44,068 nt of DNA from a virus: positions 1-44,068 of IMG/VR virus record IMGVR_UViG_3300034102_003027; one strand, given 5' to 3'. The notes beneath the pieces were generated by a model, which searched no databases, was not told where the DNA came from, and saw only the letters and a program-made list of their open reading frames with translations. The stretch's first letter is position 1. Each line of letters starts with the position of its first letter. A program made the position numbers and the translations under genes. Below are positions 9,897-32,888 of this stretch, one piece after another.

Positions 9897-10750
9897 TCCT
9901 AGTAACCGGCGACCGCGGCTTTATCGGCAGCGAACTCAAACAATATCTTATCAGCCAAGGACACGATGTACACGGCCTTGACTGGGACACACGTGGAAAA
10001 ACATACACAGCCCACACACCCATAGAATGGATATTCCACATGGGTGCCATCAGCGAAACCAATGCCGACAACTGGGAGGACATTGTTCGCAAGAATATTC
10101 AAGACACACAGGACTGGATAACAACTGCTGAACGTTGGGGCTGTGGTATCACCTATGCTTCGAGTGCCAGTGTGTATGGTCCTTGGTCAAACAGTCCCGA
10201 ATGGGGTCCGGTACAGCCGCAACATTACTATGCTGTCAGCAAACTCACTGTTGACAACTGGGTGGCTTCACGATACTTCTCAGTGCCTGTACAAGGCATG
10301 CGGTTCTTCAATGTGTACGGACGCAACGAAGGTCACAAAGCACAGCCCAGTCCCATACGCACATACATGCGGCAGGCAATAGCAGGTGAACCACTTAGAG
10401 TGTGGCATCACAACGGCCGCTTGGGCACAAGAGATTTTGTCAGTGTAGACGACTGTATCAGTGCTATGATGCAGTTGAAAGATGTCAGCATCAGTGGCGT
10501 ATACAACGTTGGCACTGGTACCCAACTCACGTTTGAAGACATTGCACACAGCATACAACGTAGATTTGACAATTTACAAGTGATATCAGAACCCATGCCC
10601 GAGCACATGGTAGAGAAATATCAATGGGAAAGCCGTGCGGATTTAAATAAACTGCAATCTACAATATCGTGGAATCCACAATCGGTGGATCAATGGCTAG
10701 ACAAAAACTTTGACAACCTATACAATAAGATCATAAATGAAAACACCTGA
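9893..10750 (+). CDS. NAD(P)-dependent sugar epimerase, HldD-like
   Basis: A 285-residue extended short-chain dehydrogenase. The Rossmann motif Thr-Gly-Asp-Arg-Gly-Phe-Ile-Gly is at residues 5-12, and the catalytic Tyr-x-x-x-Lys at Tyr113-Lys117 with the preceding Ser. Met-Gly-Ala-Ile-Ser-Glu-Thr and Phe-Phe-Asn-Val-Tyr-Gly-Arg-Asn-Glu-Gly-His-Lys match ADP-glycero-manno-heptose 6-epimerase (HldD), which makes the heptose of lipopolysaccharide inner core; the substrate-binding Arg region is less certain, so another nucleotide sugar is possible. It is the first of several sugar-nucleotide genes, suggesting surface or capsid glycan synthesis. ATGA overlap upstream. Confidence 0.87.
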   Translation: MILVTGDRGFIGSELKQYLISQGHDVHGLDWDTRGKTYTAHTPIEWIFHMGAISETNADNWEDIVRKNIQDTQDWITTAERWGCGITYASSASVYGPWSNSPEWGPVQPQHYYAVSKLTVDNWVASRYFSVPVQGMRFFNVYGRNEGHKAQPSPIRTYMRQAIAGEPLRVWHHNGRLGTRDFVSVDDCISAMMQLKDVSISGVYNVGTGTQLTFEDIAHSIQRRFDNLQVISEPMPEHMVEKYQWESRADLNKLQSTISWNPQSVDQWLDKNFDNLYNKIINENT

Positions 10751-11948
10751 AACCCTAGACAACTGTAGTTTCTGCGGCAAGCACAAAGATAGTGTAGCTA
10801 AACTTATTGTGGGCAGTGAAGTGAGTATTTGTAACGAATGCGTGGACTTGTGCCAAACCTTGCTCAAAGAAGAACTTCCCGAAAAATCAAAAGAGATAAC
10901 AGAAGATACTTTGGATCCTAGAGCCATCAAAGATCACTTGGACCAGTATGTGATTGGGCAAGATCATGCCAAGATGGTGTTGAGTGTGGCCATTGCCAAT
11001 CACTACAAACGCATTGCCAACGCAGACCCTGACACTGAAATTGAAAAAGCCAACATTCTTATGTTGGGCCCGACTGGATCAGGCAAAACATTGTTGGCAC
11101 GTACAGTAGCACGTTATTTGGATGTGCCTTTTGTGATTGCTGATGCTACCAGTCTGACAGAAGCAGGTTATGTGGGCGATGATGTGGAAAGTTTGATCAC
11201 ACGTTTGTACACAGCCGCAGGCGGTGATGTAGACCGAACTCAGCGTGGCATTGTGTTTGTGGATGAAATTGACAAGATCAGCCGTCGTAGCGAGAGTGCC
11301 AGTATCACCCGAGATGTGTCAGGAGAGGGTGTACAACAGGCCTTGCTCAAACTGGTAGAAGGTACCAAGTGCCGTATCACTCCACAAGGTGGCCGCAAGC
11401 ATCCAGCAGGTGAAACTGTGGAAATTGACACAGCCAACATATTGTTCATTGCCGGTGGTGCATTTGTAGGCCTGGACAACATTGTCAAAAGCCGTGTAAA
11501 AGGTACCAGTATTGGATTCTCAGCACAGGTTGTGGCAGACAACACTAGTGTGACCTTGGATAAAACCACACCAGAAGACCTGATCAAGTTTGGTATGATT
11601 CCAGAATTTGTGGGACGTTTTCCAAGTTGGGTTGCCTTGGCAGAACTCAGCAAAACTGACTTGGTACGCATTTTGCAAGATGTCAAACACAGTTATGTTA
11701 GCCAATATCAATGGATATTTAGACGTGATCAAGTTGACTTGGAATTCAGTGCAGACAGTTTGGATCTTATTGCTGAACGCACTATTGCCAACAAAACTGG
11801 TGCCCGTGGCTTGCACAGTGAACTTGAACGTGTGCTGTTGCCACACATGTACAATTTAACACGTTATCGCAAGGGCGGAATCCAGACCTTGAATATCAAC
11901 ACTGACCTGGTAAATAATCCTGAATCACTTCGGGAAATAAATGAATAA
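10737..11948 (+). CDS. clpX: ClpX, AAA+ unfoldase of the ClpXP protease
   Basis: A 403-residue full-length ClpX (bacterial ClpX is about 420). The N-terminal zinc domain has Cys10, Cys13, Cys32 and Cys35. The AAA+ core has Walker A Gly-Pro-Thr-Gly-Ser-Gly-Lys-Thr (111-118), pore loop Gly-Tyr-Val-Gly (144-147), Walker B ending Val-Asp-Glu-Ile-Asp, the Arg-Lys-His loop (220-222) and, importantly, the Ile-Gly-Phe tripeptide (259-261) that docks on ClpP; a Gly-Ala-Arg-Gly sensor 2 follows. It recognises and unfolds substrates for ClpP. It overlaps the epimerase by 14 bases and bS21 by 8. Every key motif is intact, so it should be an active unfoldase. Confidence 0.96.
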   Translation: MKTPETLDNCSFCGKHKDSVAKLIVGSEVSICNECVDLCQTLLKEELPEKSKEITEDTLDPRAIKDHLDQYVIGQDHAKMVLSVAIANHYKRIANADPDTEIEKANILMLGPTGSGKTLLARTVARYLDVPFVIADATSLTEAGYVGDDVESLITRLYTAAGGDVDRTQRGIVFVDEIDKISRRSESASITRDVSGEGVQQALLKLVEGTKCRITPQGGRKHPAGETVEIDTANILFIAGGAFVGLDNIVKSRVKGTSIGFSAQVVADNTSVTLDKTTPEDLIKFGMIPEFVGRFPSWVALAELSKTDLVRILQDVKHSYVSQYQWIFRRDQVDLEFSADSLDLIAERTIANKTGARGLHSELERVLLPHMYNLTRYRKGGIQTLNINTDLVNNPESLREINE

Positions 11949-12165
11949 ACCACACGCCAGATCAGTATTAGTACAAGACAACAACATTGAAAAAGCCCTT
12001 CGCAAGTTCAAGAAAAAAGTGCAAAATTCGGGCATACTAAATGATCTTAGAGAACGTGAATTTTACATCAAACCTACCACAGCACGTAAACTCAAACGCA
12101 GTGCAGCCAAAAATCGTTGGCGTAAGTATCTTGAGAGCCAACAACTGCCTCCCCGTACACATTAA
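11941..12165 (+). CDS. rpsU: Ribosomal protein bS21
   Basis: A 74-residue bS21 homologue with the family's core: Ala-Leu-Arg-Lys-Phe-Lys-Lys near residue 19, a Leu-Arg-Glu-Arg-Glu-Phe-Tyr-Ile-Lys-Pro-Thr segment and a Lys/Arg-rich C-terminal helix. bS21 sits near the anti-Shine-Dalgarno end of 16S rRNA in the 30S subunit and affects initiation; phage copies are known from marine and huge phages and are thought to exchange onto host ribosomes. It overlaps clpX and is followed by a promoter. Confidence 0.93.
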   Translation: MNKPHARSVLVQDNNIEKALRKFKKKVQNSGILNDLREREFYIKPTTARKLKRSAAKNRWRKYLESQQLPPRTH

Positions 12166-12179
12166 TTTTTCCAAATATT

Positions 12180-12210: not shown

Positions 12211-12276
12211 TACATGTAGTGCCCATAGTGGGGCTACAATTCAAAACGTCATCTTGCTTAATAAAGGAGAAAACAA

Positions 12277-12729
12277 ATGACAAAAACTCTAACCCTTCGC
12301 AGTTTCGATCTTCCCGCAATTCACAAATTTGGTATCGGTTTCGACAACCTGTTTGATGATCTCATGCGTGTCAACGCTCAACAAAGCAACAACAACTATC
12401 CACCTTACAACATTGTGCAAATCAATGATGATGAGTACATGATTGCTGTGGCTGTTGCAGGCTTTGGAGCTGACAATCTGTCAGTGATTAAGGACAAAAA
12501 GACCTTGGTCATTGAAGGCAAGCACGCCACAGAGACTGTGGAAACATCTGAAATCAATTACTTGCACAAAGGCATCAGCGAAAGAAGTTTCCGACGGGAA
12601 TTTCAATTGGCTGACTATGTAGAAATCAGCAATGCACATCTTGAACTTGGTATCCTCAGCGTTCACTTGAAACGTGAAGTGCCTGAAGAAGCCAAACCAA
12701 AGACCATTGCAATTACCTACAAAGAGTAA
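12277..12729 (+). CDS. Small heat-shock protein, Hsp20/IbpA family
   Basis: A 150-residue alpha-crystallin-domain protein. The N-terminal part carries the Phe-Asp-Asn-Leu-Phe-Asp segment typical of IbpA-like proteins, the crystallin domain spans about 40-135 (Pro-Pro-Tyr-Asn-Ile to Leu-Ser-Val-His-Leu-Lys-Arg), and the C-terminal Ile-x-Ile anchor is at Ile-Ala-Ile near residue 145. It binds unfolding proteins as oligomers without ATP. Phage copies are common in cyanophages. AAAGGAG site 6 bases before ATG. It lies between bS21 and ClpS in a proteostasis cluster. Confidence 0.94.
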   Translation: MTKTLTLRSFDLPAIHKFGIGFDNLFDDLMRVNAQQSNNNYPPYNIVQINDDEYMIAVAVAGFGADNLSVIKDKKTLVIEGKHATETVETSEINYLHKGISERSFRREFQLADYVEISNAHLELGILSVHLKREVPEEAKPKTIAITYKE

Positions 12730-12736
12730 TATAATG

Positions 12737-12791: not shown

Positions 12792-13103
12792 ATGGCACAG
12801 AGCGATACCCGCACACGAATCAAACCATCAGAGGCTGTAAAAGAGCCGCCCATGTTCAAAGTTATCTATTTGAATGACAATCAAACCACAATGGATTTTG
12901 TTGTAGACAGTTTGATTGAATATTTTGATTACACTGCCGAAACAGCCGAACAAATCACTGTGGATATCCATCAAGCCGGCCAGGCCACTGTGGCAGTGTT
13001 GCCTTATGAAATTGCCGAACAAAAAGGCATTGAAGTAACACTCAGTGCAAGATCGCAGAGTTATCCACTGCAAATCAAATTAGAACCCGAAACTGTAAAT
13101 TAA
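12792..13103 (+). CDS. clpS: ClpS, N-degron adaptor
   Basis: A 103-residue ClpS, near the usual 106. After a disordered N-terminal tail comes Pro-Pro-Met-Phe-Lys-Val-Ile, then Asn28-Asp29-Asn30 and Met34, which align with E. coli Asn34, Asp35, Asp36 and Met40, and His60, which aligns with His66; these form the pocket for the destabilising N-terminal residue. ClpS delivers N-degron substrates to ClpA. No clpA is in this window, so it would work with the host ClpA or steer it. The second Asp of the pocket is Asn here. It has an AAGGAA site and shares a TTAA with the convergent phosphoesterase. Confidence 0.9.
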   Translation: MAQSDTRTRIKPSEAVKEPPMFKVIYLNDNQTTMDFVVDSLIEYFDYTAETAEQITVDIHQAGQATVAVLPYEIAEQKGIEVTLSARSQSYPLQIKLEPETVN

Positions 13104-13888: not shown

Positions 13889-13894
13889 GATACA

Positions 13895-13912: not shown

Positions 13913-14266
13913 ATGAACATTATATTTGGAGACGCATTAGACACACTGCCGGACAATTATACCGTGCTGGAATTAGATACATTTGTATTTCCTCCTGACA
14001 GTAATAAACGAACCAGTTATTGTGTGGTTGAAAAGGTACCATTAGGAGATTTTCCGTTATTGGAACCATATCTCAAGGTGCATGCTGACATGATGCAGGC
14101 CTATAGAGATCAGAACTGGGATTATTGCTTGCATGCCATCAAAGGGCTCACAGGACGGTGGAACGGCGAGTTAGACAGTTTCTATGCCAACTTGTTGAAA
14201 CGTGTGGAAAACTATCAAGCCAATCCACCTGGTGAATATTTCACTGGTTACATTGACCGACGTTAA
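13913..14266 (+). CDS. Hypothetical protein (117 aa)
   Basis: A 117-residue acidic, mostly helical protein beginning with Met-Asn-Ile-Ile-Phe-Gly-Asp-Ala. An AAAAGGA site lies before the ATG. No family recognised. Its stop shares a TTAA with the convergent aminotransferase gene. Confidence 0.7.
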   Translation: MNIIFGDALDTLPDNYTVLELDTFVFPPDSNKRTSYCVVEKVPLGDFPLLEPYLKVHADMMQAYRDQNWDYCLHAIKGLTGRWNGELDSFYANLLKRVENYQANPPGEYFTGYIDRR

Positions 14267-15432
14267 TTTCTACTGTCTTTAAGTTTTTTAAGACCAGTTT
14301 TTAGTCGATCAAAGTACTCTGTATCTGCACCCAGTGGTGCAAATACTTTTACTCCAGTCCAGTCAGGTAGACTGGCAGCAAATTGTGCCACAGTTGACAA
14401 CTCAGACAACATGACCATGCTGCCAAAATCATAGCTCATGTATGTGTTGGAGCCGCGACAGTTGAGATCTAATTCTTGTGCTATTTTACGCAGCTCTGAC
14501 TCAATTCGTTTGGCATCAGGCAACAACTGTTTGATCAATGGTAATGCTGCCATTGCAGCCGCAACGCCGGACATGTTGGGTTGCCATGTGTGTCCGTGAC
14601 TCCATGTTTGTTTGTTCAATTGCACATTGACCTTTTCATTGCAAACAGCAGCACCCAATGGACTATATCCAGCAGTGAGTGATTTGCCAATGGCACATAT
14701 ATCTGGTTGTACATCATAAGGCTCGTAACCAAACATTGTTCCGTTTGTGCCCCAACAAAAAGCCACATCATCTACAATCATCAGTATCTCATGTTCGGTA
14801 CAGAGTTTTCTAACAGCCTGCCAGAAGTCTTGACTGTAAGGAGCCATGGTAGACGACCAACTCACAGTTTCCATGATTAGACACCCAATTTTTTGATTGG
14901 TAGCAAGGTGTTGTTTGATCTTGGTCAAAGTCAATTGTTCTTGACCTTTTTGTTGATATGCATATTGCCATTGAGGTTCATGCACAATTACTGCACGACC
15001 CAATGCAGGATATTCTCCACGCAAGTGTTTGGCCAACATAGTGGTACCGTGATAACTGTGGTCGAAACTTAAAATTTGTGGTCGATCCGCACCTTGTGCA
15101 TGCCAGTATGAGTCATTCATGGCAATGGCTGCTTCCACAGCATCTGAACCGCTCACAGCCCAGGTCAATGCTGACCAATTGCCCAATTCACAAATTTGAT
15201 CAACCAATGCACTGTTGGCCTGGGAACTTTCGCCGGTGTTGCCACGAATAAAGTTAACAGTGTTTTGTGCAACAGCGTCAACTATTTCTTGTCTACCATA
15301 ACCTAATATGTAGGCCATGTTGCCACATTGGATATCCATGTGTGTCTCACCATTGGAATATTCAACCAGGTATCCGTGTGTGCGAGTTACTGTTTTTTCC
15401 TGCTCGCCAGGTGACCAATATTTTATTTCCAT
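14263..15432 (-). CDS. Class III PLP-dependent aminotransferase
   Basis: A 389-residue fold-type I aminotransferase resembling the ornithine, acetylornithine and glutamate-semialdehyde group. The phosphate-cup segment Ser-Gly-Ser-Asp-Ala-Val-Glu is at residues 94-100, Ser-Tyr-His-Gly at 126-129, the pyridine-binding Asp-Asp at 221-222 and the Schiff-base lysine at Lys250 in Ile-Gly-Lys-Ser. It moves an amino group between an omega-amino compound or amino sugar and a keto acid. Near by are amidotransferase-like and sugar-nucleotide genes, so an amino-sugar or modified-nucleoside pathway is possible. The substrate is not decidable from sequence. Confidence 0.9.
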   Translation of the reverse strand: MEIKYWSPGEQEKTVTRTHGYLVEYSNGETHMDIQCGNMAYILGYGRQEIVDAVAQNTVNFIRGNTGESSQANSALVDQICELGNWSALTWAVSGSDAVEAAIAMNDSYWHAQGADRPQILSFDHSYHGTTMLAKHLRGEYPALGRAVIVHEPQWQYAYQQKGQEQLTLTKIKQHLATNQKIGCLIMETVSWSSTMAPYSQDFWQAVRKLCTEHEILMIVDDVAFCWGTNGTMFGYEPYDVQPDICAIGKSLTAGYSPLGAAVCNEKVNVQLNKQTWSHGHTWQPNMSGVAAAMAALPLIKQLLPDAKRIESELRKIAQELDLNCRGSNTYMSYDFGSMVMLSELSTVAQFAASLPDWTGVKVFAPLGADTEYFDRLKTGLKKLKDSRN

Positions 15433-15462
15433 GCAAATATATAGCAGGGAAAACTGGGCAGT

Positions 15463-15759
15463 TTAAATTTCAGGATTACTACTTGACTTGTCCTCACCAG
15501 CACCCAATACACAGGCTATTCTAGTGTCATATTCTATCATGGTCCATGAACGAGTTTGTTTGTTCATCATCAATGTTATATGAGTGTTGTGTACTGATTT
15601 CCCAACCCAGACTGGTGTTTCTTTGTGAGTATCTACAAAATAGTTCATCACACTCTGTGCATCTGAACATTTCATTGGCTTAGTTAGATCGATAATCTCT
15701 TGGGCGTGGGCTATAGAGCTGATTAGGCAGAATAACAACGCCACTGCTGTATTTTTCAT
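15463..15759 (-). CDS. Exported small periplasmic protein
   Basis: A 98-residue protein with a clear signal peptide (Lys at 2, hydrophobic Ala/Leu core, cleavage expected after Ala-His-Ala near residue 19). The mature part has two cysteines, which may form a disulfide, and a Trp-Thr-Met-Ile strand. A GGAGAAG site precedes the ATG, and TAAATA lies upstream on the same strand. Resembles small secreted proteins seen in marine T4-like phages; function unknown. Confidence 0.75.
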   Translation of the reverse strand: MKNTAVALLFCLISSIAHAQEIIDLTKPMKCSDAQSVMNYFVDTHKETPVWVGKSVHNTHITLMMNKQTRSWTMIEYDTRIACVLGAGEDKSSSNPEI

Positions 15760-15778
15760 AGTGGCTTCTCCTGTGCGT

Positions 15779-15794
15779 TATTTAGCGGTAAATA
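15779..15794. promoter_or_regulatory. Divergent pair of TAAATA late-type elements
   Basis: The intergenic space holds TATTTA (15779-15784; TAAATA on the minus strand, facing 15759) and TAAATA (15789-15794, facing 15799) separated by 4 bases. Both orientations fit the two flanking genes. Confidence 0.5.
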
Positions 15795-15798
15795 CCCC

Positions 15799-16440
15799 GT
15801 GAAACCCACTATAGCCCTATTCATCCATGATCCCAAATGCTCTGTGCAAAGTGGGAATGGAATTATGCGAGCCCTGGGCAACAACTACAACTTCAAACTG
15901 TTCAGCAAAAACAAAGTAGAAGATGTTTTCTTCGATGGAGTAGACATGATTGCAGTGCCCGGTGGGTTTGGTGATGCTGACAGTTACGACACCTTGTTTA
16001 AAAACAACTCAAAAGCCGTGCGTCAATTTGTGCGTCAAGGCGGAAGATACCTAGGCATTTGCATGGGCGCATACTGGGCAGGGCCACACTATCTCAATAT
16101 CTTGGATTCAGTAGATGCTGTGCAGTATCTGAAACGACCTAGTGCAGACACACGTAGACCACATGCCAAATACATGCCAGTGACTTGGCAGGGTAGACCT
16201 GACAGTATGTACTGGTACGATGGATGTGCGCTGGTGGGTGATCGCACTCGGTTTGAAACTGTGGCAACTTACAACAATGGCGATGCCATGGCTATTATAC
16301 AGAACAGAATTGGATTGATTGGTTGCCACCCTGAAGCCGAGCAGTTCTGGTATGACAGTTACTCATGGATGCGCCGACACTGGGCCGGCGGACATCATCA
16401 CAAACTCTTAGAGTTTGCCGACCGACTCATGCGGTTGTAA
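15799..16440 (+). CDS. Class I glutamine amidotransferase-like protein (BPL_N type)
   Basis: A 213-residue protein resembling the N-terminal amidotransferase-like domain of eukaryotic-type biotin protein ligases. The nucleophile elbow is Gly-Ile-Cys-Met-Gly-Ala-Tyr near residue 96 and the His-x-Glu pair is in Gly-Cys-His-Pro-Glu-Ala-Glu near residue 176, so a Cys-His-Glu triad is present. The Pro-Gly-Gly-Phe oxyanion region is at about 54-57. It could hydrolyse an amide or form one with a partner synthetase, which is not seen. The start is GTG with no strong ribosome site; TAAATA lies 5 bases upstream. Confidence 0.82.
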   Translation: MKPTIALFIHDPKCSVQSGNGIMRALGNNYNFKLFSKNKVEDVFFDGVDMIAVPGGFGDADSYDTLFKNNSKAVRQFVRQGGRYLGICMGAYWAGPHYLNILDSVDAVQYLKRPSADTRRPHAKYMPVTWQGRPDSMYWYDGCALVGDRTRFETVATYNNGDAMAIIQNRIGLIGCHPEAEQFWYDSYSWMRRHWAGGHHHKLLEFADRLMRL

Positions 16441-16442
16441 AA

Positions 16443-16462
16443 AAAGGTCCTTTCGGACCTTT
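16443..16462. terminator. Intrinsic terminator between convergent genes
   Basis: AAAGGTCC (16443-16450) pairs with GGACCTTT (16455-16462) around TTTC. On the minus strand the stem runs into seven Ts, a strong terminator for the outer-membrane protein gene; on the plus strand the T run is shorter. Confidence 0.85.
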
Positions 16463-16520
16463 AGTACTGGTTACGAGTTCCAGCGCCGCTCAATCGTTGC
16501 GGTCGGTTTAAAAACGCCGA

Positions 16521-17078
16521 TTAGAAACTACGTGTGTAACTCAAACGCCAGGCGTCTTTTTCTTCGTCACCGTAACTGCGTGAAAAACGCACAGCAACTG
16601 CGTCTTGCTTGGTCAATGCATAGCCCACTGTGGCATGCACACGACGAGTTTCGTAGGTGCTATTGACATCGCTGTCAATAGCATTGCGATAACGACCGCC
16701 TACATCACCAGTAAACCCAGCAAACAACGGGAATTTCACACCTGCGTCAATTGCATAGTAACTGAAATGAGTCGTACTCTTGATGCTTTCGCCCAGGCGT
16801 CCGCCCAAGTAGAATGCACCCAGAGATTTTCTAGCACGAGCTTCCAAGCCTGAACTGATTGTGCCTGATCCCAGTGCAGTTTGGCTGGTGTTGCTTTTGA
16901 GACTGTAGTCCCAACCTTCAGCAGCTTTGATACCAACTACCACTGCGTTGGCAATGTTGTCAGCGCTGGTTGCGCGGTTTTCTTCTTCGCTGTACTCATA
17001 GGTGGCATAGCCTGTGGCAAATGCTGTACTGGTTGCGGCCACCAAAAGTGCGGCTGCGATTGCTTTGGTAAATTTCAT
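16521..17078 (-). CDS. Phage-encoded outer-membrane beta-barrel protein
   Basis: A 185-residue protein with a signal peptide (Lys-Phe-Thr-Lys, then an Ala-rich core, cleavage near Ala-Phe-Ala at 19-21). The mature part is built of alternating strands with Tyr/Phe girdles and ends in Arg-Ser-Phe; a C-terminal Phe is the BAM insertion signal. The length suits an eight-strand barrel such as an OmpX/OmpW-like protein. It has its own TTGACA promoter and GGAG site. Expressing a new barrel in the infected cell could alter adsorption of other phages or uptake; that is inference. Confidence 0.8.
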   Translation of the reverse strand: MKFTKAIAAALLVAATSTAFATGYATYEYSEEENRATSADNIANAVVVGIKAAEGWDYSLKSNTSQTALGSGTISSGLEARARKSLGAFYLGGRLGESIKSTTHFSYYAIDAGVKFPLFAGFTGDVGGRYRNAIDSDVNSTYETRRVHATVGYALTKQDAVAVRFSRSYGDEEKDAWRLSYTRSF

Positions 17079-17106
17079 AGTTTCTCCTTTGTTAATTTAC
17101 TTTATC

Positions 17107-17135
17107 ATTGTAGATGTTTTATATAGCGTTGTCAA
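17107..17135 (-). promoter_or_regulatory. Sigma70 promoter for the outer-membrane protein gene
   Basis: On the minus strand TTGACA (17135-17130), 17 bases, TACAAT (17112-17107), followed by a leader with AAAGGAG before the ATG at 17078. Confidence 0.8.
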
Positions 17136-17146
17136 GTCTATACAAG

Positions 17147-18166
17147 TTATTTCTTGATCTGTGTCCAAACATCACTACGGATGCGATCGGTCACTGCTTT
17201 TGGCAGCGGTACATAATCAAGTTCTGTGGCTAATTTCCCGCCATTTACAAATGCCCAGTCAAAGAACTTGATGGTTTCTTGACTGGCTTTTGCATTCTTT
17301 GGTTCACGGTACATGAGAATAAATGTTGCACCGGTGATGGGCCATGACTGTGCGCCCTTTTGATTTACCAAACTGATGCCCATGCCTGGTGTTGAGAACC
17401 AATCAGCACCTGCGGCTGCGGCTGCAAATGTCAGGTCATCTGGTCCTACCACATTGCCGTCGCGATTCTGCAATTTTACATAGGTCATTTTGTTTTTCTT
17501 GGCATAGGCATATTCCACATAGCCAATTGAATTTTTAACACGGCCCACATTGGCTGCAACACCTTCATTGCCTTTGCCACCTACACTACTGGCAGCTGGC
17601 CATTTCACGGCAGCACCTTTGCCCATTTTTTCAGCCCATGGTTTGCTGACTTCATTCAAATAGTCAGTGAAGATAAATGTTGTACCAGAACCATCTGCAC
17701 GATGCACAACTGTGATAGACTCTGCAGGCAACTTGACTTTGGGGTTTAACGCTGCAATCTTGGCATCGTTCCAGTGTGTGACTGTGCCCAAGTATATATC
17801 TGCCAGCACTTCACCAGTTAACTGCAACTCACCAGGTCGGATGCCTTCTACATTGATGATTGGCACAACACCGCCCAACACTGTGGGGAACTGAACCAAT
17901 CCGCTTGCTGTTAACTCGTCACCTTTTAGCGGTGCGTCTGTGGCACCAAAGTCCACTGTGGCTGCTTTGATCTGTTTGATACCACCTGAACTGCCAATGC
18001 TTTGATAGTTCAACTGAACGTCAGTTTTGACTTGATATGCTTCACTCCACTTGCTATAAACAGGATAAGGGAAAGTTGCCCCTGCCCCTGTGATTGAAGT
18101 TTGTGCATTTGCTGATGGTGACATCAAGTACACGGATGCCGCAATGACTGCTAAGATTTTTTTCAT
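17147..18166 (-). CDS. pstS: PstS, periplasmic phosphate-binding protein
   Basis: A 339-residue PstS. I choose ATG 18166, preceded by AAAGGA and starting a clean signal peptide (Met-Lys-Lys-Ile-Leu, cleavage after Ala-Asn-Ala). The mature N-terminus has Thr-Gly-Ala-Gly-Ala-Thr-Phe-Pro, and the phosphate-binding segments include Ser-Ile-Gly-Ser-Ser-Gly-Gly and Arg-Ala-Asp-Gly-Ser-Gly-Thr-Thr. It captures phosphate in the periplasm for the host PstABC transporter. Phage pstS is well known in marine cyanophages and boosts phosphate supply during infection. A PhoB-like box lies upstream, so host phosphate sensing probably controls it. Confidence 0.95.
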   Translation of the reverse strand: MKKILAVIAASVYLMSPSANAQTSITGAGATFPYPVYSKWSEAYQVKTDVQLNYQSIGSSGGIKQIKAATVDFGATDAPLKGDELTASGLVQFPTVLGGVVPIINVEGIRPGELQLTGEVLADIYLGTVTHWNDAKIAALNPKVKLPAESITVVHRADGSGTTFIFTDYLNEVSKPWAEKMGKGAAVKWPAASSVGGKGNEGVAANVGRVKNSIGYVEYAYAKKNKMTYVKLQNRDGNVVGPDDLTFAAAAAGADWFSTPGMGISLVNQKGAQSWPITGATFILMYREPKNAKASQETIKFFDWAFVNGGKLATELDYVPLPKAVTDRIRSDVWTQIKK

Positions 18167-18204
18167 GTGTTTTTTCCTTTGTGAATTTGTGCGGTGCACA
18201 GAAT

Positions 18205-18210
18205 TATTTA
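18205..18210 (-). promoter_or_regulatory. Probable -10 / TAAATA element upstream of pstS
   Basis: TTAAATAATT on the minus strand lies about 10 bases after the PhoB-like box, the usual distance of a -10 element in Pho promoters. It also matches the phage TAAATA motif, so it may serve either polymerase form. Confidence 0.5.
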
Positions 18211-18221
18211 AACACAAAGAT

Positions 18222-18239
18222 GTTACAGTAATGTTACAA
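18222..18239 (-). promoter_or_regulatory. PhoB-like box upstream of pstS
   Basis: The minus strand reads TTGTAAC-ATTA-CTGTAAC: two 7-base half-sites in direct repeat with a 4-base AT-rich spacer, the architecture of a PhoB box (CTGTCAT-N4-CTGTCAT). A -10-like TAAATA follows at the right distance. The box overlaps the stop codon of the small upstream gene. Confidence 0.7.
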
Positions 18240-18386
18240 TGGCTTGACTTTTTTGTTCTTTTTGAGCGGACCTGTTGCCTTGGCTTCTTCTAGCATGCGT
18301 TCTGCAGCAGGTGTTGTTTGGGGAGGATGGTATACGTGGTGTTTTTGGGGTTCGTGTCGTCTTGGGGCTCGTTTAAACCAACTCAT
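18234..18386 (-). CDS. Small basic phage protein (50 aa)
   Basis: A 50-residue frame starting Met-Ser-Trp-Phe-Lys-Arg, with a Pro/His-rich middle and a Lys-rich end. AAAGGAACC precedes the ATG at the right distance. Short Trp-Phe-Lys-Arg starts followed by Pro-rich middles are seen in small proteins of T4-like marine phages. Its end overlaps the PhoB-like box of pstS. Function unknown. Confidence 0.6.
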   Translation of the reverse strand: MSWFKRAPRRHEPQKHHVYHPPQTTPAAERMLEEAKATGPLKKNKKVKPL

Positions 18387-18445
18387 AGGCGGTTCCTTTG
18401 CAGGTTAAAATACTTATTGTGTGTGTTTGAAATATAAACTCCTGG

Positions 18446-19714
18446 TTATTGCATTAAAGCACGTATATTACGATCATGCTTTCCAGTTTTGTGTTGATTC
18501 ATTGTAGTTATTGCATGATCTATATTGCTGATATATTCTTGTTTGACCCGATCAAAAAACCCATTGAAAAAATGATGTTTGTTGTGCTCGGCAATTTGAT
18601 TTAGTTTAACAAACAATTGAATTTTTTCTTGTTGCGGCAAGTTGGCCACACGAGACATTTCGGTTATTACTGCTTGAAGTCGTTGCCTGGGATCTTGAAT
18701 AGTATCATAACTCTCATCCAGCAGTCCTGAAAATGTTTTAAATCCGTAGTGACGCAGATATTGCAAACTGCCTGCTGTTGCCACAAGCATGAATGGGCGG
18801 CCGCAGGCTATGGGACGTAACGTTTTTTCAGTCAGGTGCCAACGTGTGTCATCAAACAAAGTTTCAAGCACAACTTCAATGCTGGAACTTGCATAATCTG
18901 TGTTGCAATAGTCTGCACTGGCATTGGAATTGTGATTGTTTTTTGGGAAAAATTTTTCTAACTCAAAATTTGAAATTTGGAATGCAGAGTTAACAAACTG
19001 ATGTTGTCCATACTGCATGTTATCCCAGGAATTAAATGTCATTTTGCAATGCTGACTCAACCCATTTTTTACTATTTGTTCAGCAAAACACAGTCGATAT
19101 TCTCTAGTTCCAGACCATGCACGATTGTAAACTAAAAAATCATGGGTAATCTGATTTGGATTAAATTTTAAAATTGGGTCGTGGTCAGCGTATCTAAACC
19201 AATCGTGTGCAATCATGCCATGGCTCCAGTAGTACACTGGTACATATCCTTGCTGTTCAAAGTTATTCACGTGTGAACTGTGTAGTTCTGAATGTAGTAA
19301 AAGTGTGCTGTCATAATAATTTGTAGGAGTAGCCAGGCCTCTCCAACCTAATTTTGCACAGTAGTCCACGACCGATTCTCTGTCAATGTTGTTGATTGGC
19401 AGTATTTCTTGATCCTTTTGGTGCCTGTGTCTGATTATAGATTGAAAATCCATAAACGAATATCGGTCAAAATCCAACGGTTCTTGATCATGACAAATCA
19501 TCACTGCATGGTCACTACGTGCAATGGCTAGACTGAATTGTTGTTCAGTTGATTTGGATCTTAAAGATATCCAATCTTCGGGAGTCATTGAATCGAATAA
19601 CAGTCCAAAGTCTTCTAGTTTTCTTGAGCCATGCAGTGTCCAGCCATAAATTAGTAGATCGTGGTTGACACAGTCATCCAAGTAATGATATAATCTGTCT
19701 AAAGGAACACTCAT
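18446..19714 (-). CDS. Glycosyltransferase-like protein (first of two related)
   Basis: A 422-residue protein if started at ATG 19714; an upstream extension to 19786 would overlap the divergent gene and has no better ribosome site. The recognisable part is near residues 310-360: Leu-Thr-Glu-Lys-Thr-Leu-Arg-Pro-Ile-Ala-Cys-Gly-Arg-Pro-Phe, then Gly-Phe-Lys-Thr-Phe and Asp-Glu-Ser-Tyr-Asp. That Thr-Glu-Lys plus Gly-x-Pro-Phe pattern occurs in phage and bacterial fucosyltransferase-like (GT-B) proteins. A weaker copy is in the gene at 24726. Donor and acceptor are unknown; the neighbouring UDP-sugar dehydrogenase suggests a glycan pathway. Confidence 0.65.
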   Translation of the reverse strand: MSVPLDRLYHYLDDCVNHDLLIYGWTLHGSRKLEDFGLLFDSMTPEDWISLRSKSTEQQFSLAIARSDHAVMICHDQEPLDFDRYSFMDFQSIIRHRHQKDQEILPINNIDRESVVDYCAKLGWRGLATPTNYYDSTLLLHSELHSSHVNNFEQQGYVPVYYWSHGMIAHDWFRYADHDPILKFNPNQITHDFLVYNRAWSGTREYRLCFAEQIVKNGLSQHCKMTFNSWDNMQYGQHQFVNSAFQISNFELEKFFPKNNHNSNASADYCNTDYASSSIEVVLETLFDDTRWHLTEKTLRPIACGRPFMLVATAGSLQYLRHYGFKTFSGLLDESYDTIQDPRQRLQAVITEMSRVANLPQQEKIQLFVKLNQIAEHNKHHFFNGFFDRVKQEYISNIDHAITTMNQHKTGKHDRNIRALMQ

Positions 19715-22659: not shown

Positions 22660-22664
22660 AACAA

Positions 22665-22670: not shown

Positions 22671-22674
22671 TCAC

Positions 22675-22703
22675 TTGACCAATATTAAATATTCGTGTAT
22701 ACT
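22675..22703 (+). promoter_or_regulatory. Sigma70 promoter for the UvdE gene
   Basis: TTGACC 22675-22680, 17 bases, TATACT 22698-22703. The ATG at 22710 is at the expected +1. Confidence 0.8.
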
Positions 22704-22709
22704 ACACAC

Positions 22710-23738
22710 ATGAACACATCTAAAATTGGCTTTGCTTGCAAATGGCTCAATGACCCCAGCGAATGTGGCGGCATGAAAGTCAATGCAAAGGACCGTGACT
22801 TAAACGGCAGATCAACTACCATGCGATGGCTGCGCGAACATGCAGATGAAGCAGAGCAACGTCAGTGGGACATCATGAACCACAATGCTGCCGCGGCTGT
22901 GCGGCTGATTGAACGTGTGGGCACACTGCCACCCGAACGCAGAATGGTACGTTTAGGCAGTGAAATGCTACAAGGCTACACTGAACCGTCATGGATTGAC
23001 TGGTGGCAACGTGCCGAAATACAAGAACACTGTGCTCGAATCTTTGCACCTGTGGGTGAAACTGCTCGCAGACTGGGTGTGCGTTTGTCATTTCACCCTG
23101 GGCAGTTCTGTGTGCTGGCGTCAGAGTCAGACGAGATTGTAGAACGCAGTATCTTGGAGTTTGAGTATCATGCAGACATGGCACGGTGGATGGGCTACGG
23201 TGCTGCCTGGCATGATCATGGTTTTAAAATTAATGTGCATTTGTCGGGCAAAGGCGGGCCTGCCAAGTTCCTGAAAACTCTGGGTAGACTCACTCCCGAG
23301 GCCAGGAATCTAATCGCTATTGAAAATGATGAGATGTCAAATGGTTTGGACGTTACTCTTGCTGTGGCTGATAGTGTGGCTCTTACTTTGGATATTCATC
23401 ACCATTGGATCAACACCGGTGAATACATTGAACCTATGGATCCACGTGCTCAACGGGTTGTTGAGTCTTGGCGTGGTACTCGCCCTGTTTGTCACTACAG
23501 TGTTAGCCGTGAAGATGTTGTTGTGGGACACCCTACCTTTGTTAGACCAGACCTCTCAGCATTACTCAGTCAAGGCTACAAAAAGCAAAAACTGCGAGCA
23601 CACTCGGACTTTATGTGGAATGTGGCTGTGAATGAATGGGCATTGACATTCTCCGACCAGTGGGACATCATGGTCGAAGCCAAAGGCAAGAACTTGGCCA
23701 GCGAAATACTATACAATCAATGGCGGGCCAATGCCTAA
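22710..23738 (+). CDS. UV damage endonuclease UvdE/UvsE (leaderless)
   Basis: A 342-residue TIM-barrel endonuclease. The start Ile-Gly-Phe-Ala-Cys-Lys-Trp and the Arg-Leu-Ser-Phe-His-Pro-Gly-Gln-Phe segment near residue 135 are signatures of UvdE, followed by metal-ligand candidates Glu in Ile-Glu-Asn-Asp-Glu and His-His-His near 230. The enzyme nicks DNA 5' to UV photoproducts and other lesions and starts an excision pathway independent of UvrABC. The ATG lies at the promoter's expected transcription start and has no ribosome site, so translation is probably leaderless. An overlap of 8 bases joins it to the next gene. Confidence 0.9.
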   Translation: MNTSKIGFACKWLNDPSECGGMKVNAKDRDLNGRSTTMRWLREHADEAEQRQWDIMNHNAAAAVRLIERVGTLPPERRMVRLGSEMLQGYTEPSWIDWWQRAEIQEHCARIFAPVGETARRLGVRLSFHPGQFCVLASESDEIVERSILEFEYHADMARWMGYGAAWHDHGFKINVHLSGKGGPAKFLKTLGRLTPEARNLIAIENDEMSNGLDVTLAVADSVALTLDIHHHWINTGEYIEPMDPRAQRVVESWRGTRPVCHYSVSREDVVVGHPTFVRPDLSALLSQGYKKQKLRAHSDFMWNVAVNEWALTFSDQWDIMVEAKGKNLASEILYNQWRANA

Positions 23739-24021
23739 CATCTTGACAGGAATTTTTGATTGGATACAAAGTGATTACAAAACTAACAAATTTAGATTTT
23801 GTGTGGAAGTGCTGGCTTGGGGCATTAGCATTGGGTGTAGTATCACCATGGCTGCAACTGTTCCATATCCACCTTTACTGGTTATGTATCCTATTTGGAT
23901 TACAGGGTGTGCTATGTATGCTTGGGCTAGTTATACTCGCCGATCGTTTGGTATGCTGGCCAACTACATCTTGCTCACGACGATAGATAGCGTTGGCCTG
24001 GCCCGGATGCTGTTAAATTAA
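23731..24021 (+). CDS. Small multi-pass membrane protein
   Basis: A 96-residue protein with two or three membrane segments (about residues 24-42, 48-66 and a less hydrophobic 73-92). Pro-Pro-Leu-Leu-Val-Met-Tyr-Pro and Ser-Phe-Gly-Met-Leu-Ala-Asn-Tyr look conserved, and similar proteins occur in cyanophages. Function unknown; a small transporter or channel cannot be excluded. Its 3' end overlaps the opposite-strand gene by 9 bases. Confidence 0.75.
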   Translation: MPNILTGIFDWIQSDYKTNKFRFCVEVLAWGISIGCSITMAATVPYPPLLVMYPIWITGCAMYAWASYTRRSFGMLANYILLTTIDSVGLARMLLN

Positions 24022-24729
24022 TTTTTTCAATACAACATCATTGACCCAAGAACTGTGGGCTTGGGTTACTGGATGATTGTTTACAATATCAAATTTTCGA
24101 TCCTTTGCAAAACTCAAAAATCCACAATTGGTTTGATAAAATACAAATCTGTTCCAATCAATGCAATCGAATATCCAACTGAAATTGCCACTGTTTTGTG
24201 TTTGATTGTATGATTGTTCTACTAGATTATCTCTATCATAGGCCGTGCTAAAATAGTATGGTATGTTTTTAATTTTAAAAAAATTTTCTAAACTATAAAC
24301 AGCAGTCCAGTAATTCAACAATGCAGATGTTTCGCTGTAGTAATACTTGAACCAATGTTGTTTGTGCCCACGTATTTCTCCGCCAGACAAAGAATATCCT
24401 TCAACATTGCTCAGTTGTCCATCCAAGGTTACCAATGAAGCGTTCAGGCCATTTTGCCAACTGGCAATTGATATGCCGTTGTCTTTGAGCGGATGATGTT
24501 GATCCAAGTACCAATCAAATCTGTCCACACTGGGCAACATCACAACAATCAAATCTGTGGCATTGCGACTACAGTGATACATTATTCGTTTGGCAACAAA
24601 ATCAATGCCAGCACCACGAGCCCCAAGATTTGTTAGTTTGTAATCGAGTCGTTGTGCCAAATAATCAGCCCAGGTTTCTTGATAGTTGTCCAAGGTAAAA
24701 CTGCATCCAGCAGTGACTAAATTCTTCAA
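24013..24729 (-). CDS. SGNH/GDSL-type hydrolase-like protein
   Basis: A 238-residue protein. Block I is Val-Thr-Ala-Gly-Cys-Ser-Phe-Thr near residue 4-11 with Ser as the likely nucleophile, block II is Asn-Leu-Gly-Ala-Arg-Gly-Ala-Gly, and an Asn-His-Pro-x-x-x-x-His near the C-terminus provides the His. Such proteins remove or add acyl groups on glycans or lipids. I choose TTG 24729: it overlaps the upstream stop as TTGA and has GGAG 8 bases before it. Next to glycosyltransferase-like genes, it may modify a glycan. The Asp of the usual DxxH is not obvious. Confidence 0.7.
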   Translation of the reverse strand: MKNLVTAGCSFTLDNYQETWADYLAQRLDYKLTNLGARGAGIDFVAKRIMYHCSRNATDLIVVMLPSVDRFDWYLDQHHPLKDNGISIASWQNGLNASLVTLDGQLSNVEGYSLSGGEIRGHKQHWFKYYYSETSALLNYWTAVYSLENFFKIKNIPYYFSTAYDRDNLVEQSYNQTQNSGNFSWIFDCIDWNRFVFYQTNCGFLSFAKDRKFDIVNNHPVTQAHSSWVNDVVLKKLI

Positions 24730-25844
24730 GGAATCAACTCCAACTGAGAAACAAAAAATTTGTACAAGTTTTTGCCCAGTGTCCACCGTGCCGACTCCAA
24801 TGCAGGCTGTAATTTTAAATATATGTCTTTGGCATTTTTGATCAAGTCTTGATTGTCATGGATCATTTTGTATAATCGAATTCGGTCATAGTCATCGCTG
24901 AGACCAGTGTGCTCATCAACTGCATCATATGTTGTGTTGGCAAATGTTGTTATATCAACATCGTAAAATCTTTGCACCCAGGCCATGGAACCTGGTCTGC
25001 CATAAATCAAAAACAGTTTGCCTAACAGCACAGGCCAAATACTTTTTTCTGTACTTTTAAAATGAAAAGTAGTGGTTTCGGGATTTATAGCCAGCGGTAT
25101 GCTGTGGTATTTTTGATCTATGTGTATATAATTTTCAACATTCTTAGACACCCATACACCGTTGATATTTGTTTGTCTTGCTATTGTTGGATAATTGGGA
25201 TCTGTGGGAATGTATATGTCTTCTTGGTTGACCTGGCAAAATTCCAATAGATCTGGGGAAAAAGACCAGTGGCGGTTCACTGTGATTAACCCGTAACTGC
25301 TTAACTGTTTTTTATGTAACTCTCGAGCCAGATCAGTTTTATGATTATTTGCGGTATTACCAATCAAACACAAAAAGTTATGGTCATTATCATTTGTGGC
25401 AAAGTCAGAGGCTGTGTTGGCTACCTGATAATAAGTCAAACATTCGTTCAACAACAACCATGGTAACTCTAACATTTTAATGCGAAACTGATGAAGTTCT
25501 CTATAAACCTGTTGTGCCACATGATCCAACATGGTGATCCAATAAACTGGACTGTCTACATAATTGTTAAGTATCTTGGTTAATTGTGCATTCACCACAA
25601 ATGCCACATGCTCATCTTCGGGTATGATCACTACTGACCTACCTTGACCGAGACCTTGTTGTATTTTGGGTTCTAGCCAATCATAGTTGGCCTGATCGTG
25701 AGAGCAAGTCCACGATCGATTGCTTAACCTAATGTCAATGATAAAAAGGTCTGATCGATGATGTTGTATATAACCCAGGGTATAGTAACCAAAAAGAGTG
25801 TTGTACTCGTTTAGGTTTATATTTTCATACCCCGGATACATCAA
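24726..25844 (-). CDS. Glycosyltransferase-like protein (second of two related)
   Basis: A 372-residue protein whose middle carries Phe-Lys-Ser-Thr-Glu-Lys-Ser-Ile-Trp-Pro-Val-Leu-Leu-Gly-Lys-Leu-Phe, matching the Thr-Glu-Lys...Gly-Lys pattern of the protein at 18446, followed by a Val-Asp-Ile-Thr-Thr-Phe segment and an aspartate-rich helix. I infer the same GT-B-like family with a different specificity. It precedes the SGNH protein in the same transcript with a 4-base overlap. No good ribosome site is visible at the tandem ATG-ATG start. Confidence 0.6.
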   Translation of the reverse strand: MMYPGYENINLNEYNTLFGYYTLGYIQHHRSDLFIIDIRLSNRSWTCSHDQANYDWLEPKIQQGLGQGRSVVIIPEDEHVAFVVNAQLTKILNNYVDSPVYWITMLDHVAQQVYRELHQFRIKMLELPWLLLNECLTYYQVANTASDFATNDNDHNFLCLIGNTANNHKTDLARELHKKQLSSYGLITVNRHWSFSPDLLEFCQVNQEDIYIPTDPNYPTIARQTNINGVWVSKNVENYIHIDQKYHSIPLAINPETTTFHFKSTEKSIWPVLLGKLFLIYGRPGSMAWVQRFYDVDITTFANTTYDAVDEHTGLSDDYDRIRLYKMIHDNQDLIKNAKDIYLKLQPALESARWTLGKNLYKFFVSQLELIP

Positions 25845-26293: not shown

Positions 26294-26360
26294 AGATCAA
26301 CAAGACGCTGAATGGTTCGGGTCTTGTGTTCTAGAACTTGCTTAATTCAAGGAGAAAAAC

Positions 26361-26618
26361 ATGTTCAATTCCGTAATCGAAGCTGTGCAAACTGCACAAA
26401 AAACTTTTGTCAACACTGTTGTGACAAACGAGGAAATCGCCAAGCCCATGATCAAGATGATCGACAGCCAATGCGATGCTGCCAAACTCACTGCCAAGGC
26501 TGTGTTGGATATCACCACAACTTTGGCCAGTGCTACCACTGAAAAAGTGCAGGAAGCAATGAAGTTTGACTTTACCAAATACACTGAAGCATTCAAGCCA
26601 GCTACTGCTAAAAAGTAA
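26361..26618 (+). CDS. Phasin-like protein
   Basis: An 85-residue, almost wholly helical, amphipathic protein with Ala/Thr/Val spacing and a C-terminal Phe-Asp-Phe-Thr-Lys-Tyr-Thr-Glu-Ala-Phe-Lys-Pro, resembling the phasin family that coats polyhydroxyalkanoate granules (those are usually 120-190 residues, so this is short). A strong AAGGAG site and a two-part terminator flank it, suggesting high expression. In a phage it could bind granules, membranes or proteins. The family call is a pattern judgement; a generic small helical protein is the alternative. Confidence 0.55.
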   Translation: MFNSVIEAVQTAQKTFVNTVVTNEEIAKPMIKMIDSQCDAAKLTAKAVLDITTTLASATTEKVQEAMKFDFTKYTEAFKPATAKK

Positions 26619-29591: not shown

Positions 29592-29622
29592 TATAAATAA
29601 AAGCGGCTTTCGGGCCGCTTTT
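29592..29622 (+). terminator. Intrinsic terminator with adjacent TATAAATA
   Basis: AAAAGCGGC (29599-29607) pairs with GCCGCTTTT (29614-29622) around TTTCGG, a strong terminator. TATAAATA at 29592-29599 touches its 5' arm and points toward clpP-like 29633; transcription from it would enter the hairpin, so promoter use is doubtful. Confidence 0.8.
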
Positions 29623-29632
29623 CTCACTTTAT

Positions 29633-30202
29633 ATGACCACAGAAAACGAAACAGTTCAAACCCACAGTCAAGCTCTGCAAGAAAATGGCATGTATGTTTT
29701 CATGGGCGAAGTCAATGACGAAAACATTTGCCCTATTGTGGAATGGATTTTGCATGAAAACTTTGTGGTCAAGAAAAAACGCAAAGAACTGCTGTTGATG
29801 ATTTGCTCGGAAGGTGGGGACATGGGTGCTGCCTTTGCACTAATAGATGTCATGCGGAGCAGTGTGATACCAATCAAAACTGTGGGCCTGGGCATGATAG
29901 CCAGTGCAGGGCTACTAATCTTCATTTCCGGCACCCCCGGGCGTCGATACCTCACACCCAATACTTCTATCCTTAGCCACCAATTCTCCTGGAGCAATGA
30001 AGGCAAGGCACATGAACTGTTTGCCACCATGCGTGAGTTTGAACTCACACAACAACGCATGTCATCGCACTATCAATTGTGTACAGGGTTGAGTGAGGAA
30101 GCAATTAAAAAGCACTTGTTGCCACCACATGACATTTGGCTCAGTGCCGCAGAGGCCTTGAGTCTGCATGTGTGTGATCACATTTCAGAACTTGTACGTT
30201 AA
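29633..30202 (+). CDS. ClpP-like serine protease (divergent)
   Basis: A 189-residue S14-family protease. The triad aligns as Ser91 (Ile-Ala-Ser-Ala-Gly), His116 (Leu-Ser-His-Gln) and Asp167 (His-Asp-Ile), and the Glu-Gly-Gly-Asp at 60-63 replaces the usual Pro-Gly-Gly-Ser oxyanion loop. It is shorter and more divergent than the ClpP at 32295, so it may form mixed rings, be a partner in a separate complex or be a phage maturation protease. The start has no ribosome site after the terminator. Its stop shares TTAA with the lysozyme gene. Confidence 0.85.
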   Translation: MTTENETVQTHSQALQENGMYVFMGEVNDENICPIVEWILHENFVVKKKRKELLLMICSEGGDMGAAFALIDVMRSSVIPIKTVGLGMIASAGLLIFISGTPGRRYLTPNTSILSHQFSWSNEGKAHELFATMREFELTQQRMSSHYQLCTGLSEEAIKKHLLPPHDIWLSAAEALSLHVCDHISELVR

Positions 30203-32243: not shown

Positions 32244-32271
32244 TGGTTTTCCGTGAGAAGTATGTTATACT
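32243..32271 (+). promoter_or_regulatory. Weak sigma70-like promoter before clpP
   Basis: TTGGTT 32243-32248, 17 bases, TATACT 32266-32271; AAGGAG and the GTG of clpP follow. The -35 is poor. Confidence 0.4.
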
Positions 32272-32294
32272 TATGCAACCAACAAGGAGACCGT

Positions 32295-32888
32295 GTGCCA
32301 AATTTAGTACCCATAGTTTTAGAAAACACCGCCAAAGGCGAACGCAGTTACGACATTTACAGCCGATTGCTGAAAGATCGCGTGATCATGCTGGACACAG
32401 AAGTTTCTGAGCATTCAGCCAGTTTGATTGTGGCACAACTGCTGTTTTTAGAAGCAGACAATCCTGACAAAGACATCAGTTTGTACATCAACAGCCCGGG
32501 TGGAAGTGTAACAGCAGGCATGGCCATCTACGATACCATGCAGTTTATCCGGCCAGATGTACACACCATTGTGATGGGACAAGCCTGCTCCATGGGGTCA
32601 CTGCTGGCACAGGCAGGTAGTCCGGGCAAACGTTTTATTCTGCCCAATGCTAGACACATGATCCATCAACCTTCAGGCGGTGCTCGTGGGCAGGCCACAG
32701 ACATGTTGATTCAAGTGGAAGAGATTCTTGCCATGAAGAAAAATTTAACAGGTATATATGTTAAACACAATTCGGCAGGCCGGACATTTGAACAACTCAC
32801 AGCAGACATGGAACGTGACAATTTCATGAGCGCACAAGAAGCAGTTGACTATGGACTTGCTGACAAGATCATAGAAAACCGTACATGA
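32295..32888 (+). CDS. clpP: ClpP, canonical proteolytic subunit
   Basis: A 197-residue ClpP starting at GTG 32295 (AAGGAG 5 bases before); the N-terminus Leu-Val-Pro-Ile-Val-Leu-Glu-Asn-Thr matches processed bacterial ClpP closely. Ser99 (Ala-Cys-Ser-Met-Gly), His124 (Met-Ile-His-Gln-Pro) and Asp175 (Glu-Arg-Asp) form the triad; Asn-Ser-Pro-Gly-Gly-Ser is the oxyanion loop. Fourteen subunits form the chamber fed by ClpX or ClpA. With the phage ClpX carrying an IGF loop, a phage-made ClpXP is plausible; mixing with host ClpP is also likely given the similarity. Overlaps the radical SAM gene by 4 bases. Confidence 0.95.

Follow-up and report, generated by a model that had tools for sequence, protein, structure and literature searches.

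A jumbo-phage clade with a candidate Clp proteolysis network and a second ClpP predicted not to dock

The virus fragment IMGVR_UViG_3300034102_003027 from IMG/VR, 44,068 bases long and referred to here as the window, carries genes for the unfoldase ClpX, the ribosomal protein bS21 (S21), the small heat-shock protein Hsp20, the N-degron adaptor ClpS and two ClpP peptidases, all on the plus strand. The phage probably encodes a Clp proteolysis network of its own, in which a docking-blind second ClpP would act as the undocked partner. The open papers searched do not describe this phage-type second ClpP, which, judged from aligned residues, keeps its catalytic triad, appears to have lost both docking pocket and axial loop, and always lies beside a ClpP predicted to be docking-competent. 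A clp gene in a phage is usually interpreted as one enzyme taken from a host; in this clade, motors, adaptor, peptidase and chaperones have stayed together.

Relatives were collected from IMG/VR for ClpX (491), ClpS (at least 593) and the divergent ClpP (422), and the best 80 of each were retained. In addition, a set of 55 whole records was assembled from the window, 45 IMG/VR records of at least 86 kb and nine named jumbo or huge phages. The 45 records, which together with the window make up the 46 IMG/VR records counted below, were selected for holding one of the genes; three of them (G025, G026 and G028) look near-identical in coordinates and hence not independent.

Two ClpP paralogs side by side

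The divergent ClpP (29633..30202, +; 189 residues) matches PF00574 with 93.2 bits and is 25% identical to the canonical phage ClpP. Its Ser-His-Asp triad is kept in 67/67 aligned rows, whereas the residues that we take to form the ClpP pocket for IGF loops are replaced: Y62 by M in 64/67 rows, F82 by S in 66/67, L114 by T in 67/67 and L189 by S or A in 66/67, and R192 is lost. Further, the N-terminal stretch has a median length of 10 residues compared to 18 in E. coli and thus leaves no room for an axial loop. An AlphaFold single-chain model (predicted local distance difference test, pLDDT, 87.1; predicted template modelling score, pTM, 0.83) has the ClpP fold with a long handle helix, and all 50 PDB matches listed by Foldseek are ClpP entries (TMq 0.85-0.91). 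As 34 of the 101 sequences in the AlphaFold alignment are canonical ClpPs, the predicted fold may lean on these rows; an earlier run with 21 sequences (pLDDT 67.7) was set aside. These features point to a ClpP-fold S14 peptidase without the docking pocket rather than to a docking ClpP. A search of 84,980 bacterial and archaeal genomes with two peptide patterns returned three relatives of this protein, 55-57% identical and located on short contigs of metagenome-assembled genomes that may themselves be phage. Close named relatives are limited to those of Phosso (45.7% identical) and Synechococcus phage BUCT-ZZ01 (46.4%).

The canonical ClpP (32253..32888, +; PF00574 268.4 bits) probably starts at GTG 32295, immediately downstream of AAGGAG, and with this start it would have no propeptide. 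A stretch of 10 residues aligns with ALVPMVIE of the mature E. coli protein. Among the NCBIfam models, the score exceeds the value needed for NF001368 (307.1 vs 249) and stays below that for TIGR00493 (290.9 vs 308.6). The triad is present in 61/61 rows, and of the pocket residues L48, Y62, L114 and R192 are kept in 61/61, F82 in 60/61 and I90 in 58/61; the ClpP rows compared include one chromosomal-looking Acinetobacter record of the phage collection (L240) with the order tig-clpP-clpX. The hydrophobic pocket for IGF loops thus seems largely kept, and the protein is predicted to be docking-competent.

Both paralogs are tightly linked. At 74/74 testable loci the canonical ClpP lies downstream of the divergent ClpP on the same strand, with gaps of 10-4917 bases (the two clpP matches of L237 are separated by 10); left out of this count were 6 of the 80 loci with less than 6 kb downstream and no partner. 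By substitution rates, all six genes of the Clp finding are under purifying selection, with median ratios of nonsynonymous to synonymous changes (dN/dS; 5-16 pairs with relatives per gene) of 0.078 for the divergent ClpP, 0.07 for the canonical ClpP, 0.075 for ClpX, 0.07 for S21, 0.156 for Hsp20 and 0.031 for ClpS.

Motors, adaptor and chaperones

Upstream of the clpP pair, the window holds a compact block of four genes. ClpX (10737..11948, +; 403 residues) scores 514 bits against NCBIfam TIGR00382 (cut-off 370.75) and is followed by bS21 (11941..12165, +; 74 residues; PF01165 70.2 bits), whose start overlaps the clpX end, by Hsp20 (12277..12729, +; 150 residues; PF00011 56.8 bits, PHROG 432 136 bits) and by ClpS (12792..13103, +; 103 residues; PF02617 85.8 bits). 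The positions checked in ClpX comprise zinc cysteines, Walker A and B, pore loops, RKH, IGF loop, arginine finger and sensor 2. All 22 of these residues in the window ClpX are identical to E. coli, and among 83 distinct phage ClpX proteins 20 of the 22 positions are invariant and the other two are kept in 82/83. In the IGF loop, I is present in 82/83, G in 83/83 and F in 83/83. ClpX is predicted from its residues to be an ATP-driven hexamer that docks on ClpP.

ClpS is an adaptor of ClpA, not of ClpX. In 79 ClpS rows, N34, D35, T38, H66, E79 and K84 are kept throughout (79/79), and at the pocket position M40 there is M in 53 rows and Y in 21; we assume that these pocket and contact positions, taken from the literature, apply here. 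A ClpA gene is absent from the window, which is uninformative because the window is a fragment. Among the 46 IMG/VR records, 21 encode a full-length ClpA-like protein outside the window, including 17 of the 22 records of at least 200 kb and the window's near relatives G001, G003 and G020. The best NCBIfam model for this protein is ClpA, with 799 bits vs 654 for ClpB. It contains a Clp_N domain and two AAA modules with both ATPase sites kept in 21/21, and IGF stands at the ClpP-docking loop in 21/21. The N-domain residues E28, T81 and R86, presumably the ClpS contacts, are likewise kept in 21/21, while not all of them are present in Phosso, Atu_ph07 and PA5oct. DnaJ lies directly upstream of ClpA at 4/4 clade loci examined (supported by Pfam for one) and also stands beside ClpA in PA5oct and Phosso. 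Moreover, a full-length phage DnaK lies between ClpX/S21 and Hsp20 in 7/80 ClpX loci; the DnaK of L008 (11540-13429) matches HSP70 with 853 bits, and DnaK occurs as well in L005, L048, L072, L074, L077 and L078 and, in addition to these seven, in L125.

Gene order in the block is strongly conserved. When 5 kb of downstream sequence is required, which leaves out 18 of the 80 ClpX loci, Hsp20 and then ClpS follow ClpX on one strand at 62/62 testable loci, and S21 is present at 55 of the 62. In L228, ClpX, Hsp20, ClpS and both ClpPs are contained within about 8 kb. In the 55 whole records, ClpX is found above cut-off in 53, ClpP in 52, ClpS in 50, Hsp20 in 49 and S21 in 38. Of the 46 IMG/VR records, 45 hold ClpX above cut-off, 45 ClpS and 43 exactly two ClpPs; the three records without ClpP (G004, G014 and G024) end no more than about 10 kb past ClpS. 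ClpX, ClpS, two ClpPs and a full-length ClpA-like protein occur together in 20/46.

An independent control of 23 records of at least 81 kb was selected by capsid or S77 genes; four of these were already in the first set. ClpX was called there from weak ClpA-model matches in open reading frames of 400-413 residues, not from the ClpX model. Fifteen of the 23 fragments lack any Clp gene, while ClpX-size matches occur in six, ClpS in the same six, two ClpPs in four and full-length ClpA in four; control record G028 has two ClpPs and no ClpX. Being fragments, these records are weak evidence for or against co-occurrence.

The first-pass annotation had placed ClpX, bS21, Hsp20, ClpS and two ClpPs at these positions, with bS21 and Hsp20 between clpX and clpS, and had credited ClpX with every working motif; both statements are borne out. 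The co-occurrence in related phages that it proposed to look for is seen at all testable loci of either cluster and, as the set that includes ClpA, in 20 of the 46 IMG/VR records. Its picture of four genes acting as one machine agrees with the linkage and with the docking residues, but has to be amended for ClpS, which needs a ClpA encoded outside the window. The uses that it suggested, removal of host defence proteins or timing of phage protein turnover, are conjectural. Similarly, its two ClpPs are both present with intact triads but are not equivalent, the second lacking the docking pocket.

The ClpX tree comprises 43 rows, 12 of them bacterial with no betaproteobacterium, so that a host may still have been the source. 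All 23 environmental rows cluster together (100/100). Their position beside PA5oct, Phosso and Atu_ph07 has 91/90, under the program's mark for firm support; PA5oct sits on a long branch. Phage G groups with Paenibacillus and Lak-B2 with Parabacteroides.

Leader RNA, promoter motif and neighbouring genes

The hsp20 gene is preceded by a leader RNA (12211..12275, +) in which a covarying hairpin is followed by CUUGCUU...AAGGAG. In an alignment of 46 sequences (A2), from which L077 is omitted as it has no hairpin upstream of hsp20, two-sided changes occur in 7/8 pairs of the hairpin, and its covariation of 0.254 compares to 0.108 when shuffled (0/500) and to at most 0.048 when slid. A second pairing, GUCAU/AUGAC, would mask the ribosome site and the start codon; it is invariant and therefore has no covariation support. 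Alignment A4 omits L008, L048, L072 and L087, 4 of the 46 sequences of A2, and the model R1 was built from 42 sequences. The window's hsp20 leader matches R1 with 75.7 bits (E 1.6e-16) but is itself a training sequence of the model. A second copy in the window (26297..26360, +; 22.6 bits, E 0.0048) precedes an open reading frame of 85 residues (26361..26618, +), which has no Pfam support and strikes us as phasin-like.

R1 also finds the leader upstream of DnaK at 8/8 DnaK loci searched and upstream of a small open reading frame at 30/50 divergent-ClpP loci, where 29 of the 30 frames are related to the window's. Members of three gene families, hsp20, dnaK and the phasin-like open reading frame, stand behind such a covarying hairpin with YUYGCUU...AGGAG after it. 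No leader is matched at 16 ClpA loci and three head loci, and at E 0.1 there are no matches in the PA5oct, Paride, Phosso, Atu_ph07 and E. coli stretches; a look-alike in PA5oct was found by eye and pattern only. An Rfam scan of the hsp20 leader gives nothing above threshold (best RF02980 freshwater-2, 27.2 vs 49.9 bits), and the Rfam ROSE model does not match it up to E 10. Between 5 and 42 °C, the predicted accessibility goes from 0.36 to 0.36 at the ribosome site and from 0.05 to 0.27 at the start codon. As the ribosome site is predicted to become hardly more accessible with heat, an RNA thermometer is a guess. The shared leader suggests a chaperone regulon of the phage's own, and none of the open papers searched describes a covarying leader RNA ahead of these three kinds of gene.

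The motif TATAAATA, which we take to be the T4 late-promoter box, occurs twice in the window, upstream of hsp20 and upstream of the divergent clpP; the chance mean is 0.88, and 27/100 shuffles reach two. In distinct upstream stretches of relatives it is present in 24/77 for hsp20 and 16/44 for the divergent clpP, and in none for clpX (0/77), S21 (0/68), clpS (0/81) and canonical clpP (0/62). It is equally absent upstream of capsid (0/70) and prohead-protease genes (0/52) and hence does not mark late genes. Upstream of hsp20, TTGAC, 15-19 bases and TATAWW occur in 22/76 stretches (strict pattern 0/76). We therefore rejected the motif as a late promoter and as evidence of timing; before hsp20 it resembles a sigma-70 -10 box. 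At 29592-29632 of the window, 34-41 bases upstream of the divergent clpP, a GC-rich hairpin and a run of T come directly after it, and a similar arrangement is seen in many relatives.

Phage-type genes flank the Clp genes of the window, namely DNA ligase, PAAR, Hsp20, endonuclease, nucleotide-sugar enzymes and PstS; the window lacks tRNA genes, and nothing in it reaches the gathering score of an Rfam family. The PstS-type phosphate-binding protein (17147-18217) matches the PHROG phosphate transporter subunit with 227 bits. A cluster at 14263-25844 combines a class III aminotransferase with GATase-like and UDP-glucose dehydrogenase-type genes and with others for sugars or small molecules. A protein of the PaaA/PaaC phenylacetate-oxygenase type (42031-42984; PF05138 321.6 bits) is also encoded within this phage fragment.

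Alternative readings and known systems

Since the genes travel together and ClpX, ClpA and the canonical ClpP have all retained docking residues, a degradation machine built by the phage is the best reading. The window would come from a T4-like jumbo phage that encodes a Clp network of its own and not just one isolated clp gene. The ClpX of the phage, and a ClpA whose gene lies outside the fragment, would dock through their IGF loops on the canonical ClpP ring and feed unfolded protein into it; phage ClpXP and ClpAPS most likely share this one docking-competent ring. ClpS would pass N-degron substrates to ClpA, while Hsp20 may hold or deliver misfolded protein, assisted by DnaJ and, in some of the relatives, also by DnaK. 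The divergent ClpP is most likely an undocked ring or contributes undocked subunits to a mixed ClpP particle, to which the motors would attach on the canonical face only. From gene content, conservation, linkage and residues we infer assembly, partnership and substrates, as well as the purpose, which would be protein turnover in the infected cell.

Several observations weigh against this network. In the canonical ClpP, the docking-pocket residue Y60 is found in 0/61 rows and F112 is variable, and for both ClpPs the best PHROG is a head maturation protease family. The ClpS pocket position M62 is T in 79/79 rows, and the window ClpS stays below the NCBIfam equivalog cut-off (best 76 vs 149). The ClpA-like proteins of the 21 records score 765-818 bits, below the NCBIfam cut-off of 993; four records of at least 200 kb, possibly incomplete, have no ClpA match (G012, G024, G040 and G043), and the ClpA-like gene of G044 (C1:10981-13070) is divided between two reading frames, one of which contains a stop. 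Control record G052 (303 kb) has a single ClpP, the canonical one. Finally, a phage leucyl/phenylalanyl transferase (Aat, PF03588) is absent from all 55 records, compared to 4/14 control rings; N-degrons would therefore need the host or cleavage as their source, and we rejected phage-made N-degrons on this count.

A broader reading, tentative and less likely than not, is one of infection proteostasis, in which a mixed particle of the docking ClpP and a docking-blind ClpP invented by the phage would accept phage ClpX or ClpA/ClpS on one face and be closed to host motors on the other, and Hsp20, DnaK and the phasin-like protein would be co-regulated by the one leader RNA. It is rather unlikely that the phage motors and ClpS act instead on host ClpP or host ClpA, with the phage ClpPs as extras. 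The IGF loops of ClpX and ClpA are indeed of the general bacterial type and some named jumbo phages hold ClpX without ClpS, but 43/46 records of the clade encode a docking-competent ClpP of the phage itself, and 21/46 a phage ClpA. A jumbo-phage review names ClpP, ClpS, ClpA and ClpX in subsets and proposes that phage ClpS feeds host ClpAP (PMC7824862).

Similarly doubtful is a role of the divergent ClpP in head maturation or other virion processing, unrelated to ClpX and ClpA. S14 proteases do act as prohead proteases in other phages, and H128, H158 and H159 bear this name; the best PHROG of the divergent ClpP is the head maturation family phrog_94 (1.5e-18), and a lost docking pocket would fit such a function. 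However, the NCBIfam head-maturation model gives 45.7 of the 120 bits needed, and the gene adjoins canonical clpP at every testable locus and not capsid genes. Moreover, a separate S77 prohead protease of the T4 type is encoded in 21/55 records (20 above cut-off), coexists with two ClpPs in 13 IMG/VR records and adjoins the capsid gene in G019. Together, score, linkage and the separate S77 protease weaken the prohead-protease reading. That all of these genes were carried along from a host and play no part in infection is highly improbable: every family except the divergent ClpP is common in bacteria, but median dN/dS lies at 0.03-0.16, gene order is kept between phages whose ClpX proteins are about 42-50% identical, and the 23 environmental ClpX rows fall into a single clade.

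The phage-run Clp network thus remains our preferred reading, and cultured phages offer the closest comparisons. The gene combination itself is not new, as Atu_ph07, PA5oct and Phosso carry it in the ClpX-S21-Hsp20-ClpS order. The view of the first-pass annotation that the set is much less common than isolated clpP genes does not hold for cultured jumbo phages: the 2018 Atu_ph07 paper lists ClpX, ClpA, ClpB, ClpP and ClpS together, seven Clp proteins in all, and names gp128 'prophage Clp protease-like' (PMC6102473). Likewise, the paper on AP-J-162 describes six Clp open reading frames (PMC11242549). Published phages with bS21 have Hsp20 (127) as well as two pVOGs of Clp proteases (50 and 47) at most 10 genes from bS21; the bS21 clades of Chen et al. 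2022 differ from ours in their predicted Bacteroidetes hosts and in bS21 near capsid genes (PMC9723584). Clp terms are absent from the searched passages of PMC6892783, PMC13282480 and PMC10761892, and the open papers searched describe neither a divergent phage ClpP paired with a second ClpP nor the gene order seen here.

PA5oct resembles the window in the order ClpX, S21, two genes, Hsp20 and ClpS on the same strand, and FtsH, ClpP, DnaJ and ClpA follow, the whole stretch lying within about 26 kb. Unlike the window, it has a single ClpP and an FtsH in this place, and its ClpX is 42% identical. The PA5oct ClpP record bears a mass-spectrometry note. Its relative Paride (L458 3121-6282) has a ClpX-size open reading frame, S21, Hsp20 and a ClpS-type gene in order; Paride is reported to replicate on dormant cells, and the searched passages of its paper make no mention of Clp. 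Atu_ph07 shares the order ClpX, S21, Hsp20 and ClpS on one strand of a circular record but has one PF00574 match. SCTP-2 has ClpX, S21 and ClpS, with Hsp20 elsewhere. The Sinorhizobium phage Phosso also resembles the window clade: ClpX, S21, Hsp20 and ClpS stand in order over about 17 kb, ClpA lies behind DnaJ, and of its two ClpPs the second, the relative of the window's divergent ClpP noted above, keeps the triad and lacks the pocket. In contrast to the window, its two clpP genes are about 85 kb apart in record coordinates. The clade thus raises a question that is testable on cultured phages such as Phosso and PA5oct, namely whether a virus runs its own protein-degradation pathway.

Among cellular systems, mycobacterial and Listeria ClpP1P2 likewise combine two ClpP paralogs, and in M. 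tuberculosis the motor attaches to just one of the two rings. Unlike ClpP1P2, the divergent phage ClpP has no axial loop and shares only a quarter of its residues with its putative canonical partner. If the assignment is true, a ClpP paralog that has given up docking but remains catalytic would offer a natural experiment on the division of labour among ClpP rings.

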